A stretch of DNA of 64,000 bases from Devosia sp. 67-54 (GTDB lineage Bacteria > Pseudomonadota > Alphaproteobacteria > Rhizobiales > Devosiaceae), in NCBI RefSeq assembly GCF_001899075.1, contig NZ_MKVA01000005.1, positions 992,001 to 1,056,000 on the forward strand, read 5' to 3'. The notes under the pieces are model-generated. The model worked only from the letters and a program-made list of their open reading frames with translations, made no database searches and was not told the origin of the DNA. Of the stretch, positions 40,851-50,096 are shown piece after piece. Position numbers and translations under genes: made by a program. Positions within the stretch are counted from its first letter, which is position 1, and every line of letters starts with the position of its first letter.

Positions 40851-41615
40851 ATGAACCGTCGGCGGAAGATTTACGAGGGCAAGGCGAAGGACCTCTACGA
40901 GGGTCCGGAGCCGGGCACTCTGGTTCAGTACTTCAAGGACGACGCCACCGCCGGCAACGGCGCCAAGCACGATATCATCGACGGCAAGGGCGTCCTCAAC
41001 AACCGCATCTCCGAATACATCTTCACCAAGCTCAATACGCTGGGCATCCCCACGCATTTCATCCGCCGCATCAACATGCGCGAGCAACTGATCAAGGAAG
41101 TCGAGATCATTCCGCTCGAGGTGGTGGTGCGCAACGTCGCGGCCGGCTCGCTGGTCAAGCGCCTCGGGCTCGAGGCCGGCACGCAGCTGCCGCGCTCGAT
41201 CATCGAATTCTACTACAAGGACGATGCCCTCAACGACCCGATGGTGAGCGAAGAGCACATCACCGCGTTCGGCTGGGCCACCCCGCCCGAGCTGGACGAC
41301 ATCATGAGCCTGGCGGTGCGCGTCAACGACTTCCTCACCGGCCTGTTTATGGGCGTCGGCATCCAGCTCGTCGACTTCAAGATCGAGTGCGGGCGGCTCT
41401 ACGAGGGGGACACGATGCGGATCGTGCTGGCCGACGAGATCAGCCCGGACAATTGCCGGCTGTGGGACATCAAGACCCGCAACAAGCTCGACAAGGACCG
41501 CTTCCGCGAGGATCTGGGCGGGCTGGTCGACGCCTATCGCGAAGTGGCGCAGCGGCTCGGCATTCTTGTGGAAACCGACAACGCGCTGACGACCGGGCCG
41601 CGCCTGGTCCAGTAA
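40851..41615 (+). CDS. purC: SAICAR synthetase
   Basis: The 254-residue enzyme condenses aspartate with CAIR in purine synthesis. It has the ATP-grasp-like [32 protein letters not shown] and [20 protein letters not shown] motifs. AGGA precedes the ATG by eight bases. purS begins nine bases after its stop. Confidence 0.98.
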
Positions 41616-41624
41616 GAAGCGCGC

Positions 41625-41864
41625 ATGAGAGCCCGCGTCACCGTCACCCTCAAAGCCGGCGTGCTTGACCCGCAGGGCCAGGCCATCACCGGTTCGCTCA
41701 AGAGCCTCGGCTTTTCCGGGGTTTCCGCCGTGCGGCAGGGCAAGGTGTTCGACCTCGAGCTGGGCGAGACCGACCCAGCGGAGGCGCGGCTCAGCCTCGC
41801 CGCGATGTGCGAGAAGCTGCTCGCCAACACGGTGATCGAGAACTACGCGATCGAGATCGTCTGA
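41625..41864 (+). CDS. purS: FGAM synthetase subunit PurS
   Basis: The 79-residue subunit bridges PurQ and PurL in the FGAM synthetase complex. It has the PurS signature VTLKAGVLDPQGQAITGSLK, LGFSGVSAVRQGK and CEKLLANTVIENYAIEIV. The stop is followed within six bases by a strong terminator stem, separating it from purQ. Confidence 0.97.
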   Translation: MRARVTVTLKAGVLDPQGQAITGSLKSLGFSGVSAVRQGKVFDLELGETDPAEARLSLAAMCEKLLANTVIENYAIEIV

Positions 41865-41869
41865 ACCGC

Positions 41870-41923
41870 AAAGCCCCGCCCGCCCTCCCGTCGTTGCGTA
41901 CGCGGGAAGGCGGGCGGGGCTTT
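41870..41923. terminator. strong bidirectional terminator after purS
   Basis: AAAGCCCCGCCCGCC and GGCGGGCGGGGCTTT pair over 15 bases, with a further TCCCG/CGGGA pairing inside. It lies between the purS stop and the convergent YCII stop and ends in short T-runs on both strands. It therefore marks the end of the purC-purS transcript. Confidence 0.8.
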
Positions 41924-41941
41924 CGGACCGTCTGCTGCCCG

Positions 41942-42331
41942 CTACAATTTCACCTGCGGGCGGCCTTCTCCGGTCTCGCTGTGCGTCTGCTCCAGGGTGG
42001 GGCGGATTTCGACGCTGGCGTATTTCATCAGGGCACTGTCCCTGGTCAGGGCGATGGCCTCGTCCATGTCCCGGGCCTCGATCAGGGTGAAGCCGCCGAG
42101 CCATTCCTTGGTTTCGAGGAACGGGCCGTCGGTGCGGCTGATGCCGCGCCGGCCGCCACGGATGGTGACCGCGGTTTCCGGGCCCTGCAGCGGCTGGCCG
42201 AGGATCAGATGGCCGGAGCGGCGCATATCGATGTCCTCGACAATGGTGTCGTCGGTGAGCTTGGTCAGCTCGGCCTCGGAGACGCCATCGAAGGCGCCGG
42301 GCTCGAAATAGACGAGGCACATAAATTTCAT
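41942..42331 (-). CDS. YCII-related (YciI) domain protein
   Basis: The 129-residue protein starts MKFMCLVYFEPGAF, then contains ISRTDGPFLETKEWLGGFTL (DGPF) and IEARDMDEAIALTRDSA, typical of the YCII domain. It is the second YCII gene in the window (see 1-415). GGAG precedes the ATG by seven bases. No ECF sigma factor is nearby. Confidence 0.9.
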   Translation of the reverse strand: MKFMCLVYFEPGAFDGVSEAELTKLTDDTIVEDIDMRRSGHLILGQPLQGPETAVTIRGGRRGISRTDGPFLETKEWLGGFTLIEARDMDEAIALTRDSALMKYASVEIRPTLEQTHSETGEGRPQVKL

Positions 42332-42539
42332 CTGGAGTCTCCATGCTTGTGTCGCAGGTAATCGCGCGACGAAGGGCGAAATCGACAATACTCTGTCAGG
42401 GCGTCTCGCAGGCTCTGTCATGGCGGCAGGTGCGGCGTTCGAGTCACACCGCGAGGCAATCGCGCCTGCGACGCCAAAGTGCCCTGTTTCGGGCCGGCGA
42501 ATCCGCTAGAGCGATGCCGTTCGTCCGGTTGCCCCTGCC

Positions 42540-42623
42540 ATGCTCAAGACCTTCTCGCTGTCGCTGCTGTTCATGCTTGCCCTCGGGCTCATGATCGCGG
42601 CCTATTCCAGCATCCCAACCTGA
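42540..42623 (+). CDS. 27-residue membrane microprotein, first copy
   Basis: The ATG-TGA frame reads MLKTFSLSLLFMLALGLM then IAAYSSIPT: a positively charged start, one hydrophobic helix and a short polar tail. A paralog lies at 44011-44100, 20 of 27 aligned residues identical. The DNA differs by eight synonymous and seven conservative changes, the pattern expected of a coding sequence under selection. It ends 18 bases before the glycosyltransferase. No clear ribosome-binding site precedes the ATG. Function unknown. Confidence 0.7.
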   Translation: MLKTFSLSLLFMLALGLMIAAYSSIPT

Positions 42624-42641
42624 TCCAGCGGCGGGGCCGAA

Positions 42642-43901
42642 TTGGCTCGTATCGTCTTCCTCAGCGTGCCGGCCTACGGACACCTCAATCCGGTGCTGCC
42701 GATCGTGCGCGAGCTGGTGCGCCGCGGCCATGAGGTCACGGTGTTCGACGAGCCGCCCTTCGCCCCGGTAATCGCGGCGACGGGGGCGAAATTCGTCGCC
42801 TACCCGCCGGTGATGAGCATGGAGGACATGGCCGCCGTGCTGATGAGCGGCGACCTGATGGCGACGTTCGAGCTGTTCGTGCGCTCGACCCCGGCGCTGC
42901 ACGAATTCTGCTACCGCACGCTGAAGCGCGACAAGCCCGACATCATCGTCGCCGACGGCATTGCGCTGTGGGGCGAAATGGTGGGGCGGGCGCTGCGGGT
43001 GCCGCATGTGATCACCAGCCCGTTCTTTGCCTACGAGATCGGGCGCAACCAGGCGCCGGGCGAGTTCCCGGCCAGCCTCAAGAGCTTCCTCAGACATCTG
43101 GGGCCGCTGGTCTGGGGCTGGATCGCGGTGGCGCTCAAGGGGGTGTGGCTGCTGCCGCTGCACTGGCCGATCCAGCCGGTGCGCGGCGACCTGACGCTGA
43201 TGCTGACCAGCCGCGAGGTGCACCCGCCCTCGCCCATCTTCGACAAGAAGGGCTGGGCCTTCGTCGGCGCCATGATCGACCCGGCGACGCGGCTCGACAG
43301 CTTCGATTTCTCGCGGCTCGACGGGCGGCCGGTGATCTATGTGTCGCTGGGGACGCTGATCTTCGGCAAGACCGATTTCTACGAGCGCTGCATGCAGGCG
43401 CTGGCCGACTTCTCCGGCCAGGTGCTGCTGTCGGCCGGGCGCGGCTCCGACCTCGGCCGCTTCGCCAAGGCGCCCGGGAACTTCATCGTCGCCGAGACCT
43501 TCCCGCAGCTCGAGGTGCTGCAGCGTACCGACCTGTTCATCACCCCGGCCGGGCTCAACAGCCTGCACGAGGCGCTGTGGTTCGGCGTGCCGATGGTGGC
43601 GGTGCCGCAGCATTTCGAGCAACTGCACAATGCCGAGGCGATGAGCACGCGGGGCGCCGGCATCACGCTGCCGGACGAGGCGCATGGCGGCACGGTCAGC
43701 CCGGCCGAGCTACGGCGGGCGGTCGATACGGTGTTCGCCGACCTCGCGGGCTACCGCAGCAAGGCGCTGGCGCTGGGCGAGAGCCTCAAAGCGGCCGGCG
43801 GGTTCGCGGCCGCCGCCGATCTCATCGAGCGCACCGGCGCGCGGCGTTCAGGTCACGTTCAGCCGGACGCCGTCACAAGCGCGTCGGCGGCGGTGCGGTA
43901 G
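42642..43901 (+). CDS. UDP-glycosyltransferase of the MGT/YjiC type (GT1)
   Basis: The 419-residue protein has VFLSVPAYGHLNPVLPIVRE at the N-terminus, VIYVSLGTLIFGKTDFYERC and the C-terminal donor-binding QLEVLQRTDLFITPAGLNSL followed by HEALWFGVPMVAVPQHFEQ (D/E-Q pair). Such enzymes transfer sugar from UDP-sugars to small hydrophobic acceptors or lipids. The start is TTG at 42642. A membrane-associated loop (VWGWIAVALKGVWLLPLHWP) is unusual and suggests contact with lipid. It sits between two microprotein genes. Confidence 0.88.
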   Translation: MARIVFLSVPAYGHLNPVLPIVRELVRRGHEVTVFDEPPFAPVIAATGAKFVAYPPVMSMEDMAAVLMSGDLMATFELFVRSTPALHEFCYRTLKRDKPDIIVADGIALWGEMVGRALRVPHVITSPFFAYEIGRNQAPGEFPASLKSFLRHLGPLVWGWIAVALKGVWLLPLHWPIQPVRGDLTLMLTSREVHPPSPIFDKKGWAFVGAMIDPATRLDSFDFSRLDGRPVIYVSLGTLIFGKTDFYERCMQALADFSGQVLLSAGRGSDLGRFAKAPGNFIVAETFPQLEVLQRTDLFITPAGLNSLHEALWFGVPMVAVPQHFEQLHNAEAMSTRGAGITLPDEAHGGTVSPAELRRAVDTVFADLAGYRSKALALGESLKAAGGFAAAADLIERTGARRSGHVQPDAVTSASAAVR

Positions 43902-44010
43902 TCGTTACCGGCCGCTTAACCAAACCGATTCAACACGGCTTAACCGGCCGACCCTATAACCGAGACATGCGCTGCGTAGCGCGCGCGACCACCAGTAAAG
44001 CCCGCCCCAA

Positions 44011-44100
44011 ATGCTCAAGACCTTCTCGCTGTCCGTGCTGTTCTTCCTGACCCTGGGCGTGATGTTCGCCGCCTATGCGTCGGTGCCGACGGGCTTCTGA
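44011..44100 (+). CDS. 29-residue membrane microprotein, second copy
   Basis: The frame reads MLKTFSLSVLFFLTLGVM then FAAYASVPTGF, paralogous to the peptide at 42540. Its first 23 DNA bases are identical to the other copy, but the later codons diverge synonymously. A single membrane helix is predicted. It lies between the glycosyltransferase and the acyltransferase genes, 112 bases upstream of the latter. Function unknown. Confidence 0.7.
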   Translation: MLKTFSLSVLFFLTLGVMFAAYASVPTGF

Positions 44101-44135
44101 TTTCCTGACAATTTTCGGCATTAAGCACGCCGGGT

Positions 44136-44151
44136 AACCGTCGCGACGGTT
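44136..44151. promoter_or_regulatory. 16-base perfect palindrome
   Basis: AACCGTCGCGACGGTT is a perfect palindrome 61 bases before the acyltransferase start. A weaker hairpin CGGGCG/CGCCCG (44156-44173) follows. It looks like a dimeric repressor or activator site. The protein is unknown. Confidence 0.4.
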
Positions 44152-44212
44152 GTCACGGGCGTTAACGCGCCCGCTGCTCTATGTCGGAAGCTCCAACCTG
44201 GAGTTTTGCGGC

Positions 44213-45292
44213 ATGTCAGGTCAGAACGCGCGGCTTTCGTGGGTCGATACGGCCAAGGGAATCTCCATCATCCTCGTGGTGATGATGTATTCGGTGTTCA
44301 ACGTCGGCCAGGATGCCGAGGGCATCGGCCTGTTCCACTACGTCATCGGCTTTGCCACCCCGTTCCGGATGCCGGAATTCTTCCTGATCTCGGGGCTGTT
44401 CCTCGACCAGGTGCTGTCGCGAACCTGGAAGGCGTATGCCGACCGGCGCGTGCTGCATTATTTCTACTTCTACGCCGTGTGGGCGGTGATCCACATCGTG
44501 CTCAAGATCGGCATCATGAGCGCGGCGCCCATCGAGGCGGCCAACGACGTGCTGTGGGCCATCGTCGAGCCCTATGGCGTGCTGTGGTTCATCTACCTGC
44601 TCGCCGCCTTCAGCGCCGTGACCAAGCTGTTCTACGACCTCAAGGCGCCGAAATGGGCGGTGTGGGCGTTCGGCGCCGCCTTCCAGATGGCGCACGTGCA
44701 GACCGGCAGCTACCTGGTCGACCAGTTCTGCGCCTATTTCGTCTATTTCTACTCGGGCTACATCTTTGCGCCGATGATCTTCCGGCTGGTCGACTGGGCC
44801 GCCGCCAACACACGGCTGGCGCTGCTCGGGCTCGCCGCCTATGCCGTGGTCAACGTCGTGCTGGTGTTCTCGCCCGGCTTCGAGGTGCTGCCCGGCGAAA
44901 TCCAGCTCGGCTGGGGCGGCGTCCCGGGGGTGCGGCTGCTGCTCGCCATCGCCGGCGCCCTGGCGCTGTGCGTCACCGCCGGGCTGATCACCAACTTCAA
45001 GGCGGTCACCTGGTTGCGCTGGCTGGGCGAGCATTCGATCGTGGTCTACCTGGTGTTCGTGCTGCCGATGTCGTTCGCCCGCATCGGGCTCAGCAAGCTC
45101 GGCCTGATCCAGGACGTGACGCTGTCGAGCTTCCTGGTGATGGTGATTGCCATCGGCGCCTCGGTGGGGCTGTACCTGCTGGTACAGAAGACCGGCCGCG
45201 GCAAGTTCCTGTTCGAGCGCCCGGCCTGGGCGCATCTCAGCGGCGTCAAGGGCAGCCGGTCGTATCGCCCGGCGGCGGTGCCGGCGGAATAG
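44213..45292 (+). CDS. acyltransferase family 3 membrane protein
   Basis: The 359-residue protein has about ten membrane segments and the AT3 features RLSWVDTAKGISIILVVMMY and FRMPEFFLISGLFL; the usual catalytic His-containing motif after the second helix is not obvious (VMMYS where H is usual), so the activity is uncertain. Such proteins move acyl groups onto extracytoplasmic sugars or lipids. GGAG nine bases before ATG 44213 sets the start. Together with the glycosyltransferase it suggests surface glycan or lipid modification. Confidence 0.85.
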   Translation: MSGQNARLSWVDTAKGISIILVVMMYSVFNVGQDAEGIGLFHYVIGFATPFRMPEFFLISGLFLDQVLSRTWKAYADRRVLHYFYFYAVWAVIHIVLKIGIMSAAPIEAANDVLWAIVEPYGVLWFIYLLAAFSAVTKLFYDLKAPKWAVWAFGAAFQMAHVQTGSYLVDQFCAYFVYFYSGYIFAPMIFRLVDWAAANTRLALLGLAAYAVVNVVLVFSPGFEVLPGEIQLGWGGVPGVRLLLAIAGALALCVTAGLITNFKAVTWLRWLGEHSIVVYLVFVLPMSFARIGLSKLGLIQDVTLSSFLVMVIAIGASVGLYLLVQKTGRGKFLFERPAWAHLSGVKGSRSYRPAAVPAE

Positions 45293-45332
45293 GACGGGGC
45301 GTTGCGGTGGCGGTGTGTGCGCCGAGAGATCG

Positions 45333-45407
45333 CACCCCTCACCCGGCTTCTAGGCTCGCTTACGCTCGCCAAGGCGCCGACCTCTCCCCTGAAGGGGCGA
45401 GGTGAGG
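45333..45407. repeat. RIME-like intergenic mosaic repeat
   Basis: The stretch has CACCCCTCACCC, then CCTCTCCCC and GGGGCGAGG around a TGAA loop (45381-45402) and ends GGTGAGG. The layout resembles rhizobial intergenic mosaic elements, and a second form lies at 50903-50960. It fills the gap before purQ. Confidence 0.6.
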
Positions 45408-45489
45408 CTGACTGCCAGCAACGGTTTCGGTGGGATGACACCTTGGGTCGGGCTTGCCTTTTGGCGGTGGACGCAGCACTAGTCGGCCT

Positions 45490-46155
45490 ATGAAATCAGC
45501 CGTCGTTGTCTTCCCCGGCCTCAACCGCGACCGCGACATGATCGCGGCGCTCGGCACGATTTCGGGCCGGGCGCCGGCTGTCGTCTGGCACAAGGAGACG
45601 GAGTTGCCGGATGTCGACCTGATCGTCATCCCGGGCGGCTTTTCCTATGGCGACTATCTGCGCGTCGGGGCCATCGCGGCGCGCTCGCCGATCATGGCGA
45701 CGATCCGCGAGCGGGCGGCGAAGGGCGTGCACGTGCTGGGCGTGTGCAACGGCTTCCAGATCCTGACCGAGGCCGGGCTGGTGCCGGGGGTGCTGATGCG
45801 CAACGCCTCGCTACGCTTCGTCTGCCGCGAGGTGCGGCTGAGGGTCGAGACGGCCGATACCGCCTTCACCCGCGGCTATGCGCAAGGCCAGGTGATCACG
45901 ACGCCGGTGGCGCATCACGACGGCAATTATTTCGCCGACGCCAATACGCTCAAGGCGATCGAGGACAACGGCCAGGTGGCGTTCCGCTATGCCGAGGGCA
46001 CCAATCCGAACGGGTCGGTCAACGACATCGCCGGCGTGCTCAACCGCGAGCGCAACGTGCTCGGCCTGATGCCGCACCCCGAGAATCTGATCGAAAGCGC
46101 GCATGGCGGGCTCGACGGCCGGGCGCTGTTTGCGGGGCTGCTGCAGGTCGCGTGA
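45490..46155 (+). CDS. purQ: FGAM synthetase glutaminase subunit PurQ
   Basis: The 221-residue class I glutamine amidotransferase releases ammonia for PurL. The catalytic Cys is in [20 protein letters not shown], with [18 protein letters not shown] before it and the His-Glu pair in [11 protein letters not shown]. It should act with PurS (41625) and PurL (47865). In related genomes purQ follows purS directly; here it is 3.6 kb away with a RIME-like repeat upstream. Confidence 0.97.
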
Positions 46156-46221: not shown

Positions 46222-46854
46222 GTGAAACAGACGCTGACCTGGGTTGGTTTCGTCGCCGGCGCCGCCGCCCTGATCCTGCAACTCGCCATCACGCTGCCAG
46301 CCCGCCTCGACAAGGGCGACAGCCTGGTGGGGGGGCTGGTGTTCTATTTCAGCTTCTTCACCATCCTCACCAATCTGGCGCTGGTGCTGATCTATGCTGC
46401 CGAGCTGTGGCCGCGCGCGCCGCTCGGCTGGTTCCGCCGGCCGGTGACGCAGGGCATGATGGCCGCGGCGATCACGCTGGTGATGGTGTTCTACCATCTG
46501 ATCCTGGCCGAGACGTGGGACCCGCAAGGGCTGAGCCTCGTCTGCGACGTGGCGCTGCACTACGTGACGCCGCTGCTGTACCTTTTGTGGTGGGTGCTAT
46601 GCAGCCGGCACGGGGCGCTGCGCTGGAGCGACATTCCAGCCATGCTGCTGCCGCCGACGATCTATCTGGCCTGGGCGATGGCGCGCGGCGCCGTGGTGGG
46701 CGAATATCCCTACCCCATCCTCGAGGCCAACCGCATCGGCTACATGCTGGTGGCGCTCAACGTGGTGCTGGTGCTGGTTGGCCTCACGGTGCTGTGCGCC
46801 CTCGCCATCGGGGCCGACGGGCTGCTGGCCCGGGCGCGGAGGCTGCCGTTGTGA
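46222..46854 (+). CDS. Pr6Pr family membrane protein
   Basis: The 210-residue protein has six membrane helices with FYFSFFTILTNLALVLIYAA, YHLILAETWDPQG and ALHYVTPLLYLLWWVL, as in the Pr6Pr/FAR-17a/AIG1-like family. The helices carry His residues that may be functional; substrate unknown. GTG is the start with a GAGG site. The GTG start of the next gene overlaps its stop. Confidence 0.9.
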   Translation: MKQTLTWVGFVAGAAALILQLAITLPARLDKGDSLVGGLVFYFSFFTILTNLALVLIYAAELWPRAPLGWFRRPVTQGMMAAAITLVMVFYHLILAETWDPQGLSLVCDVALHYVTPLLYLLWWVLCSRHGALRWSDIPAMLLPPTIYLAWAMARGAVVGEYPYPILEANRIGYMLVALNVVLVLVGLTVLCALAIGADGLLARARRLPL

Positions 46855-47864: not shown

Positions 47865-50096
47865 ATGACATTCGACAATCATCGCGAGATCACGCCGGAC
47901 CTGGTCGCCGACCACGGCCTCAAGCCCGACGAATACCAGAAGATTCTGGGCCTGATCGGGCGCACACCGACCTACACCGAGCTCGGCATCTTCTCGGCGA
48001 TGTGGAACGAGCACTGCTCGTACAAATCTTCGAAGAAATGGCTGCGCACCCTGCCGACGACGGGCGAGCGGGTGATCCAGGGGCCGGGCGAGAACGCCGG
48101 GGTGGTCGACATCGGCGACGGCCAGGCGATCGTGTTCAAGATGGAGTCGCACAACCATCCCTCGTTCATCGAACCGTATCAGGGGGCGGCGACGGGCGTG
48201 GGCGGCATCCTGCGCGACGTGTTCACCATGGGGGCGCGGCCGGTGGCGGCGATGAATGCGCTGCGCTTCGGCGCGCCGGAGCACGACAAGACCCGGCATC
48301 TGGTGTCGGGCGTGGTGGCGGGGGTCGGCGGGTACGGCAATTCGTTCGGCGTGCCGGTGGTGGGCGGCGAGGTGGAGTTCGACGCGCGCTACAACGGCAA
48401 CATCCTGGTCAACGCCTTCGCGGCGGGCCTCGTCGACACCGACAAGATCTTTTACTCGAAGGCCGAAGGGGTCGGGCTGCCGGTGGTCTATCTCGGGGCC
48501 AAGACCGGGCGCGACGGCGTCGGCGGCGCCACCATGGCCTCGGCGGAATTCGGCGACGACATCGAGCAGAAGCGCCCGACGGTGCAGGTGGGCGACCCGT
48601 TCACCGAAAAGCGGCTGCTGGAAGCCTGCCTCGAACTGATGGCGACCGGCGCGGTGATCGCCATCCAGGACATGGGGGCGGCCGGCCTCACCTGCTCGGC
48701 GGTGGAGATGGGCGCCAAGGGCGACCTCGGCATCGCGCTCGATCTCGACCGGGTGCCGGTGCGCGAAGCCGAAATGACGCCCTACGAGATGATGCTGAGC
48801 GAGAGCCAGGAGCGCATGCTCATGGTGCTGCATCCGGAGAAGGAAGCCGAAGCGCGCGCCGTGTTCGAGAAATGGGAGCTCGATTTCGCCACCGTGGGCA
48901 TCACCACCGACGACCTCCGCTTCCGGGTGACGTGGCGGGGCGAGGAGGTCGCGAACCTGCCGATCAAGGAGCTGGGCGACGAAGCGCCGGAATACGACCG
49001 GCCGTGGACGCAGCCGACGGTGGTGGCGCCGCTCGCCGAGAACGATATTCCACAGATGGAGGTGGCCGAGGCGCTGCTCAAGCTGGTCGGAGGCCCTGCC
49101 CTCAGCTCGCGCCGCTGGGTGTACGAGCAGTACGACACCTGGATCCAGGGCAATTCGCTGCAGCGGCCGGGGGGCGATGCGGGGGTGATCCGCGTCGATG
49201 GACCAAACCCGCACAAGGGCCTCGCCTTCACCTCGGACGTGACGCCGCGCTATTGCGAGGCCGATCCGTACGAAGGCGGCAAGCAGGCGGTGGCCGAGGC
49301 GTGGCGCAACCTCACCGCGGTGGGCGCCGAGCCGCTGGCGGCGACCGACAACCTCAATTTCGGCAATCCCGAGCGACCCGAGATCATGGGGCAATTGGTC
49401 GAGGCGGTGCGCGGCATCGGCGATGCCTGCCGGGCGCTCGGCTTCCCCATCGTTTCGGGCAATGTGTCGCTCTACAACGAGACCAACGGCCAGGGCATCC
49501 TGCCGACGCCGACCATCGGCGGCGTGGGGCTGATCGACGATTGGCGCCGGTCGGCGCGCATCGGCTTTGCCGGCGAGGGAGAGTGCATCCTGCTGGTCGG
49601 GGCGCCCGACTGGTGGGGCACGCATCTGGCGCAGTCGATCTACATGCGCGACCTGTTCGGCCGCACCGACGGGCCGCCGCCGCCGGTCGACCTGGCGATG
49701 GAAAAGAAGGCCGGCGACCTGGTGCGGCTTTTGATCCGCGACGGCCACGCCAGCGCCGTGCACGACCTGTCCGACGGCGGGCTGGCGGTGGGGCTGGCGG
49801 AGATGGCGATGGCCTCGGGCATCGGCGCCGTGGTCAACCAGCTCGAGGGGGGCGACCCGATCCCGCAATTCTTCGGCGAGGACCAGGGGCGCTATCTGGT
49901 GACGCTCAAGCGCGATTTCGTCGACACATTCTACGACGAGATCTACCCCTATGCCGGGGTGTTCGCGCCGTGGATCGGCAATACCGGCGGCACCGAACTG
50001 GTGCTGGGCAAGGCGCGGCCGATCGCGGTCACCGACCTCAGGAGCGCGCACGAAAGCTGGTTCCCGACCTATATGGCCGGCGAGATCGCGGCGTAG
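47865..50096 (+). CDS. purL: FGAM synthetase large subunit PurL
   Basis: The 743-residue enzyme makes FGAM from FGAR, ATP and ammonia. It has the AIR-synthase-like repeats with [56 protein letters not shown] and [15 protein letters not shown]; the ATP-binding and active-site His and Glu are present. It is the small (PurSQL-type) enzyme, not the fused 1,300-residue form. Confidence 0.98.

Follow-up and report, generated by a model that had tools for sequence, protein, structure and literature searches.

A selected membrane-type microprotein follows purS in Devosia-type bacteria, in the slot held in Stappia/Roseibium-type bacteria by the small membrane protein NF041637

In nearly every sequenced genome that we searched from the Devosia-type family, the purine gene purS, which encodes a subunit of FGAM synthase, is followed by a very short gene for a membrane-type microprotein of 27-29 residues. 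This microprotein, here called UP, is a new, unmodelled family that occupies a known slot, since in Stappia/Roseibium-type bacteria the same place after purS holds NF041637, the "FGAM synthase-associated small membrane protein" (NCBIfam FGAM_small_mem, phosphoribosylformylglycinamidine synthase-associated). A gene for roughly 27 amino acids is conserved across nearly the whole bacterial family, yet none of the models in Pfam, NCBIfam or PADLOC matches it, and its PHROG match is negligible. We tentatively read UP as the Devosia-type counterpart of NF041637 and as an accessory of the purine unit that sits in the membrane, a reading to which we give slightly less than even confidence.

The analysis began from two copies, UP1 and UP2, in a stretch of 64,000 nucleotides of Devosia sp. 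67-54 (the window). The gene order there is purB, purC, purS, a YCII-related gene on the opposite strand, UP1, a glycosyltransferase gene, UP2, an acyltransferase gene, purQ, a Pr6Pr family gene and purL (Table 1); the window gene names are profile matches, and the gene caller that was used is crude. Both tiny frames lie on the forward strand at the positions given in the earlier note, flanking the glycosyltransferase gene with the acyltransferase 3 (AT3) gene after UP2, and its comparison of the pair was reproduced exactly: 20 of 27 residues are identical, and the 27 codons divide into 12 identical, 8 synonymous and 7 nonsynonymous. Its description of the glycosyltransferase as MGT-type holds in part, as the protein satisfies the Pfam UDPGT model but reaches 245.5 bits against TIGR01426 (MGT), for which the curated cut-off is 260 bits. 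UP1 and UP2 are the sole UP matches in the source genome at E<=10. The Pr6Pr family gene of the window recurs in related genomes, sometimes in two or three copies.

Table 1. Features of the purine gene cluster in the window
Feature	Position	Strand	Basis or remark
purC	40851..41615	+	TIGR00081 2e-69
purS, FGAM synthase subunit	41625..41864	+	NF004630 8e-33, TIGR00302 2.5e-26, PF02700
YCII-related protein, between purS and UP1	41942..42331	-	PF03795 1.5e-12
UP1	42540-42623	+	27 aa MLKTFSLSLLFMLALGLMIAAYSSIPT; extra copy, 18 nt 5' of glycosyltransferase start
UDP-glycosyltransferase, MGT-like, lineage-specific insert	42642..43901	+	Pfam UDPGT met; below MGT cut-off
UP2	44011-44100	+	29 aa MLKTFSLSVLFFLTLGVMFAAYASVPTGF; looks like ancestral purS-slot copy
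Acyltransferase 3 (AT3) family membrane protein	44213..45292	+	PF01757 1.9e-26
purQ	45490..46155	+	NF002957 1.8e-99
Pr6Pr family membrane protein	46222..46854	+	NF038065 8.6e-44
purL	47865..50096	+	NF002290 5e-299

The earlier note had staked its reading beforehand on the existence of homologs beyond this pair, and such homologs are abundant: a UP profile matches 126 of the 136 genomes of the family at E<=0.02, a count of non-independent events given that many of the genomes are related. Of these, 124 reach E<=1.5e-8, and the matches are not due to chance. The named relatives with UP that were fetched through purS are labelled Devosia, Arsenicitalea aurantiaca, or related isolates and MAGs; Devosia belongs to the Devosiaceae, order Hyphomicrobiales. 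Six of the ten family genomes without a UP match (G003, G014, G022, G084, G089 and G132) also lack a purS hit, so that the absence of UP from them may reflect assembly gaps. Four genomes (G100, G105, G133 and G135) bear purS without a clear UP, which argues that UP is not strictly essential. G107, a 60%-complete assembly, matches UP but gave hits to neither purS nor AT3, and it was not counted as an AT3-less case.

After a disrupted copy (G016), two weak rows (G100 and G133) and a chance row (G087) were dropped from 146 rows, 142 copies scoring >25 bits remained. These are 27-30 amino acids long (25 in G125 with a later start) and follow the consensus M-[LI]-K-T-x-S-L-S-x-x-F-F-x-x-L-G-L-x-x-A-A-Y-A-S-V-P-V. 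Among the anchored copies one position is Phe in 141/141 and another is Tyr in 131/141. For 34 non-overlapping pairs from different genomes, picked by an ORF divergence of 6-22% from 92 copies of 27 amino acids (a choice that biases the accompanying comparison of flanks, which is set aside here), we counted 290 synonymous differences over 743.8 sites and 76 nonsynonymous differences over 1908.2 sites, giving a dN/dS of 0.074; the differences fall on codon positions 1, 2 and 3 in the proportion 66/8/292. This ratio and this codon-position pattern therefore establish, beyond reasonable doubt, a protein kept by selection, in strong agreement with what had been proposed from the window pair.

Beyond the family the signal fades. 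No convincing non-family match came from a sample of 397 genomes of the order or from one of 387 genomes of the class, both drawn from larger groups: the best E in the order was 0.0097, and the class gave three others, at E 0.0013-0.0048, all within open frames of 186-444 amino acids, the best of them within the 444-residue frame. A plasmid search returned no UP match.

The stable neighbour of UP is purS, and not the glycosyltransferase or AT3. UP lies downstream of purS in 125 of the 129 purS-bearing family genomes. In 124 of the 129 it is on the same strand and within 3 kb, the median gap between the purS match and UP being 69 nt, and a diverged copy 71 nt past purS (G104) raises the count to 125. 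Among the 124 slot copies, 120 are found 52-190 nt past the end of the purS match, the remaining four being those of the window and its three glycosyltransferase-bearing relatives. Two further observations indicate that UP is neither strictly essential nor tied to the pur locus: Candidatus Devosia symbiotica (G100, 2.0 Mb; L182/L297) has kept purS with a degenerate UP, and Arsenicitalea (G019) has two extra UP copies away from the pur genes (L079:7770-7859 and L080:7324-7407). The first of these extra copies sits between two other small hydrophobic ORFs, and close to the second are a tRNA-Phe gene (L080:7541-7616) and an ORF that by eye looks like a hydrolase; the neighbours of the two copies gave no functional lead.

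This distribution bears on the suggestion of the earlier note that the pair might serve a surface-modification enzyme, with a conserved location beside glycosyltransferase and AT3 genes. An ortholog of the glycosyltransferase is present in just 4/136 family genomes, against 126/136 for UP, and the gene downstream of UP varies where purS is constant. We consider it improbable that UP acts with, or regulates, either the glycosyltransferase or the AT3 downstream of it. In favour of such a role, AT3 begins no more than 1.2 kb past UP in 93 of the 124 slot-copy genomes, and UP1 precedes the glycosyltransferase in all four genomes that have the enzyme, with its stop codon 15-18 nt upstream. AT3 is, however, 3.3-3.6 kb from UP in 17 genomes and 105 kb away in another (G040); five genomes (G008, G017, G070, G090 and G125) have an intact UP and no AT3 match at E<=1e-60; AT3 lies 592 and 309 nt after purS in two genomes with no UP match (G105 and G135); and in one genus terminators stand directly 3' of UP. 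At the same threshold AT3 is found in 122/136 family genomes; one genome below it (G080) contains AT3 pieces and was not counted as AT3-less. Co-occurrence with these two enzymes, tried as a mark of membership, was rejected on the four glycosyltransferase genomes and the five AT3-less genomes with intact UP. UP1 alone may have a local role with the glycosyltransferase, because its stop codon lies so close upstream in all four. What is supported of the first reading is the selection on a protein and the membrane-type sequence, and not the surface-enzyme partnership.

All 13 of 13 genomes of genus g15 have a strong intrinsic terminator 28-47 nt past UP (shuffle rate 0.015), so that UP is probably the last gene of the purS transcript there; outside g15 terminators 3' of UP are near chance (5/72, 1/32 and 2/25 copies). 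A Shine-Dalgarno (SD) core precedes UP in 63/72 copies in the largest genus and in 13/13 in g15, compared with 15% of shuffles. It is sparse in the remaining groups (4/13, 1/6 and 2/6), and in the window's genus it precedes 0/17 slot-type, 0/4 UP1 and 0/11 second copies. For the largest genus together with three genomes of other genera, [ACT]GGA occurs at the expected distance before the UP start in 71/75 gaps. A consensus scan of positions 41800-44300 of the window for promoters and terminators found none. Over 137 gaps, called by a rough script and in some cases not starting at purS, the sequence 5' of UP does not generally fold more stably than shuffles (mean z -0.39). The one exception is a short stem ahead of the SD: in most gaps of the largest genus, GCGCC...GGCGC with compensatory variants lies directly 5' of the AGGA ribosome site (for example L033, about 1446-1500).

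This stem, and the fact that UP is a short ORF ahead of a gene, could be taken to mean that UP is a leader or arrest peptide controlling the following genes (AT3 or purQ). We regard this as highly improbable, for the stem is upstream and not downstream of UP, the gene after UP differs between species, the distance from Pro to the stop codon varies, the conserved part of UP is a membrane helix, and positions 41500-45500 of the window have no Rfam match. Conserved downstream RNA structure and a constant regulated gene, sought as marks of a leader or attenuator, were not found: the gene varies, and terminators outside g15 are near chance.

In the window's genus 16 of 19 genomes have two UP matches. 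There dN/dS is 0.10 among 13 purS-adjacent copies and 0.42 among 11 second copies, and it is 0.05 among the four UP2-type and 0.14 among the four UP1-type copies, values computed over all pairs rather than independent pairs. One second copy (G016, L077:1330-1428) has a frame disrupted from about residue 12 onwards, which fits a relaxed constraint on extra copies. UP2 is similar to the slot copy in its peptide, and its 5' flank, CCAGTAAAGxCC, is similar to the one before the purS-adjacent copy of sister genomes. This resemblance makes UP2 the likely slot copy of the window; in four species, its own included, a segment bearing UP1 and the glycosyltransferase would have come to separate that copy from purS. 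Tandem copies in the window's genus, along with the size and hydrophobicity of UP, also recall type I toxin-like peptides held in duplicate. We give that explanation hardly any credence, in view of the single fixed place of UP in nearly the whole family, the strong purifying selection on it, and its lack of a PADLOC match and of more than a negligible PHROG match.

The description of UP as a membrane microprotein is supported by its sequence, which has one hydrophobic stretch, and by an AlphaFold model of a 30-residue relative, a single helix over residues 2-24 with a mean pLDDT of 93; UP is thus a predicted membrane protein with a single span. By the positive-inside rule the basic end of a membrane helix stays on the cytosolic side, and the basic N-terminal end of UP therefore suggests an N-in, C-out orientation. 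Faces of the form small-x3-small are helix-packing surfaces, and 124 of the 141 anchored copies of UP retain a small-x3-small-x3-small face. The C-terminal part of UP also contains A-x-[A/G/S], a signal-peptidase-like motif, in 127/141 anchored copies, and is followed by a nearly constant S/T-V-P-V tail. UP could on these grounds be a signal-peptide-like precursor, cut after A-Y-A to release an exported signal of 4-6 residues (S-V-P-V); we consider this very improbable, because tails of differing length and composition occur (PTGF, PVPL, PVV, PVGD), no receptor or export gene stood out beside UP, and the A-Y-A residues equally form a helix end.

The comparison with NF041637 rests on the slot that the two proteins occupy. 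Of 30 purS loci fetched from the order, three were too short; among the 27 scanned, 2 had UP (both from the window's family), 3 an NF041637-named hydrophobic ORF, 1 a chance-like frame and 21 none. The chance-like frame (L229) begins 120 nt after purS, where purQ already begins. NF041637 exceeds its curated 40-bit cut-off in 37/247 order genomes and in 0/136 family genomes; 42/136 family genomes match it at E<=1, all below the cut-off, the best E being 0.0046 and the best such match scoring 19.2 bits at a site other than purS. In the six of these 37 genomes for which purS was located as well (G143, G145, G172, G175, G179 and G189) NF041637 is 23-72 nt past the purS match, and in another (G170) a sub-threshold match lies 81 nt past it. 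A set of 80 named purS loci, two of which (L344 and L346) are one genome, divided into 30 with UP, 32 with an NF041637-type ORF, 18 with neither and 0 with both. The 32 come from Stappia, Roseibium (a member of the Stappiaceae), Labrenzia, Pannonibacter, Pseudovibrio, Hongsoonwoonella and one MAG labelled Rhodobacteraceae, and 0/18 of the loci with neither protein have another hydrophobic small ORF starting in the slot. In no genome or locus searched do UP and NF041637 occur together. Membrane-type microproteins of different sequence thus occupy the gap after purS in at least two lineages.

Homology between the two was sought and not detected. UP1 and UP2 have no match to the NF041637 model at E<=10, and a profile-profile comparison gave an hhalign probability of 0.5 over one aligned column, profiles of about 30 residues having little power in such a comparison. 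As no sequence relation is detectable, the slot common to UP and NF041637 could be a coincidence.

Under our preferred reading, in which UP is an accessory of the purine unit located in the membrane, UP would be translated as a single-span inner-membrane microprotein whose basic N-terminus faces inwards and whose short A-Y-A-S-V-P tail faces outwards. Its gene lies at the purS end of the purine cluster, and it would be made constitutively along with PurS. Its G-x3-A-x3-S face would pack against a second UP or a different membrane helix, and UP would form a membrane-side site or regulator for the purine-synthesis unit. The predicted cytosolic part of UP, about 4-5 residues, is too little alone to hold a soluble complex, and the N-tails of NF041637 are longer. 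With only about five cytosolic residues available, UP is less likely to grip soluble FGAM synthase directly than to assemble with itself or with a membrane partner. A broader proposal is that UP and NF041637 took the purS slot independently because FGAM synthase, or the purine flux through it, is tethered or sensed at the inner membrane; we think this rather unlikely. Our literature searches found no paper on NF041637 or on membrane tethering or sensing of FGAM synthase, and the main text of a paper on the S. meliloti small proteome (PMC10117765) makes no mention of purS, purQ or purL. The position of UP beside purS hints that purine synthesis and the cell membrane are linked in some way, and turns the bare NCBIfam label of NF041637 into a testable question, namely why a soluble purine enzyme should be made with a membrane peptide.

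Among known systems, the closest in arrangement is NF041637 itself. Like it, UP is a small protein with a predicted single span, encoded tens of nucleotides after purS on the same strand and ahead of purQ. The proteins differ in that NF041637 members are 35-62 amino acids long, with a charged N-tail and, in most of 19 aligned, a K-A-A-[IV]-F-x-x-x-P core, whereas UP has 27-30 amino acids and no such core. UP also resembles KdpF and CydX, each a single helix of about 30 residues encoded beside a larger enzyme. KdpF and CydX are small membrane proteins of integral membrane enzyme complexes; PurS, PurQ and PurL, beside which UP and NF041637 are encoded, are soluble.
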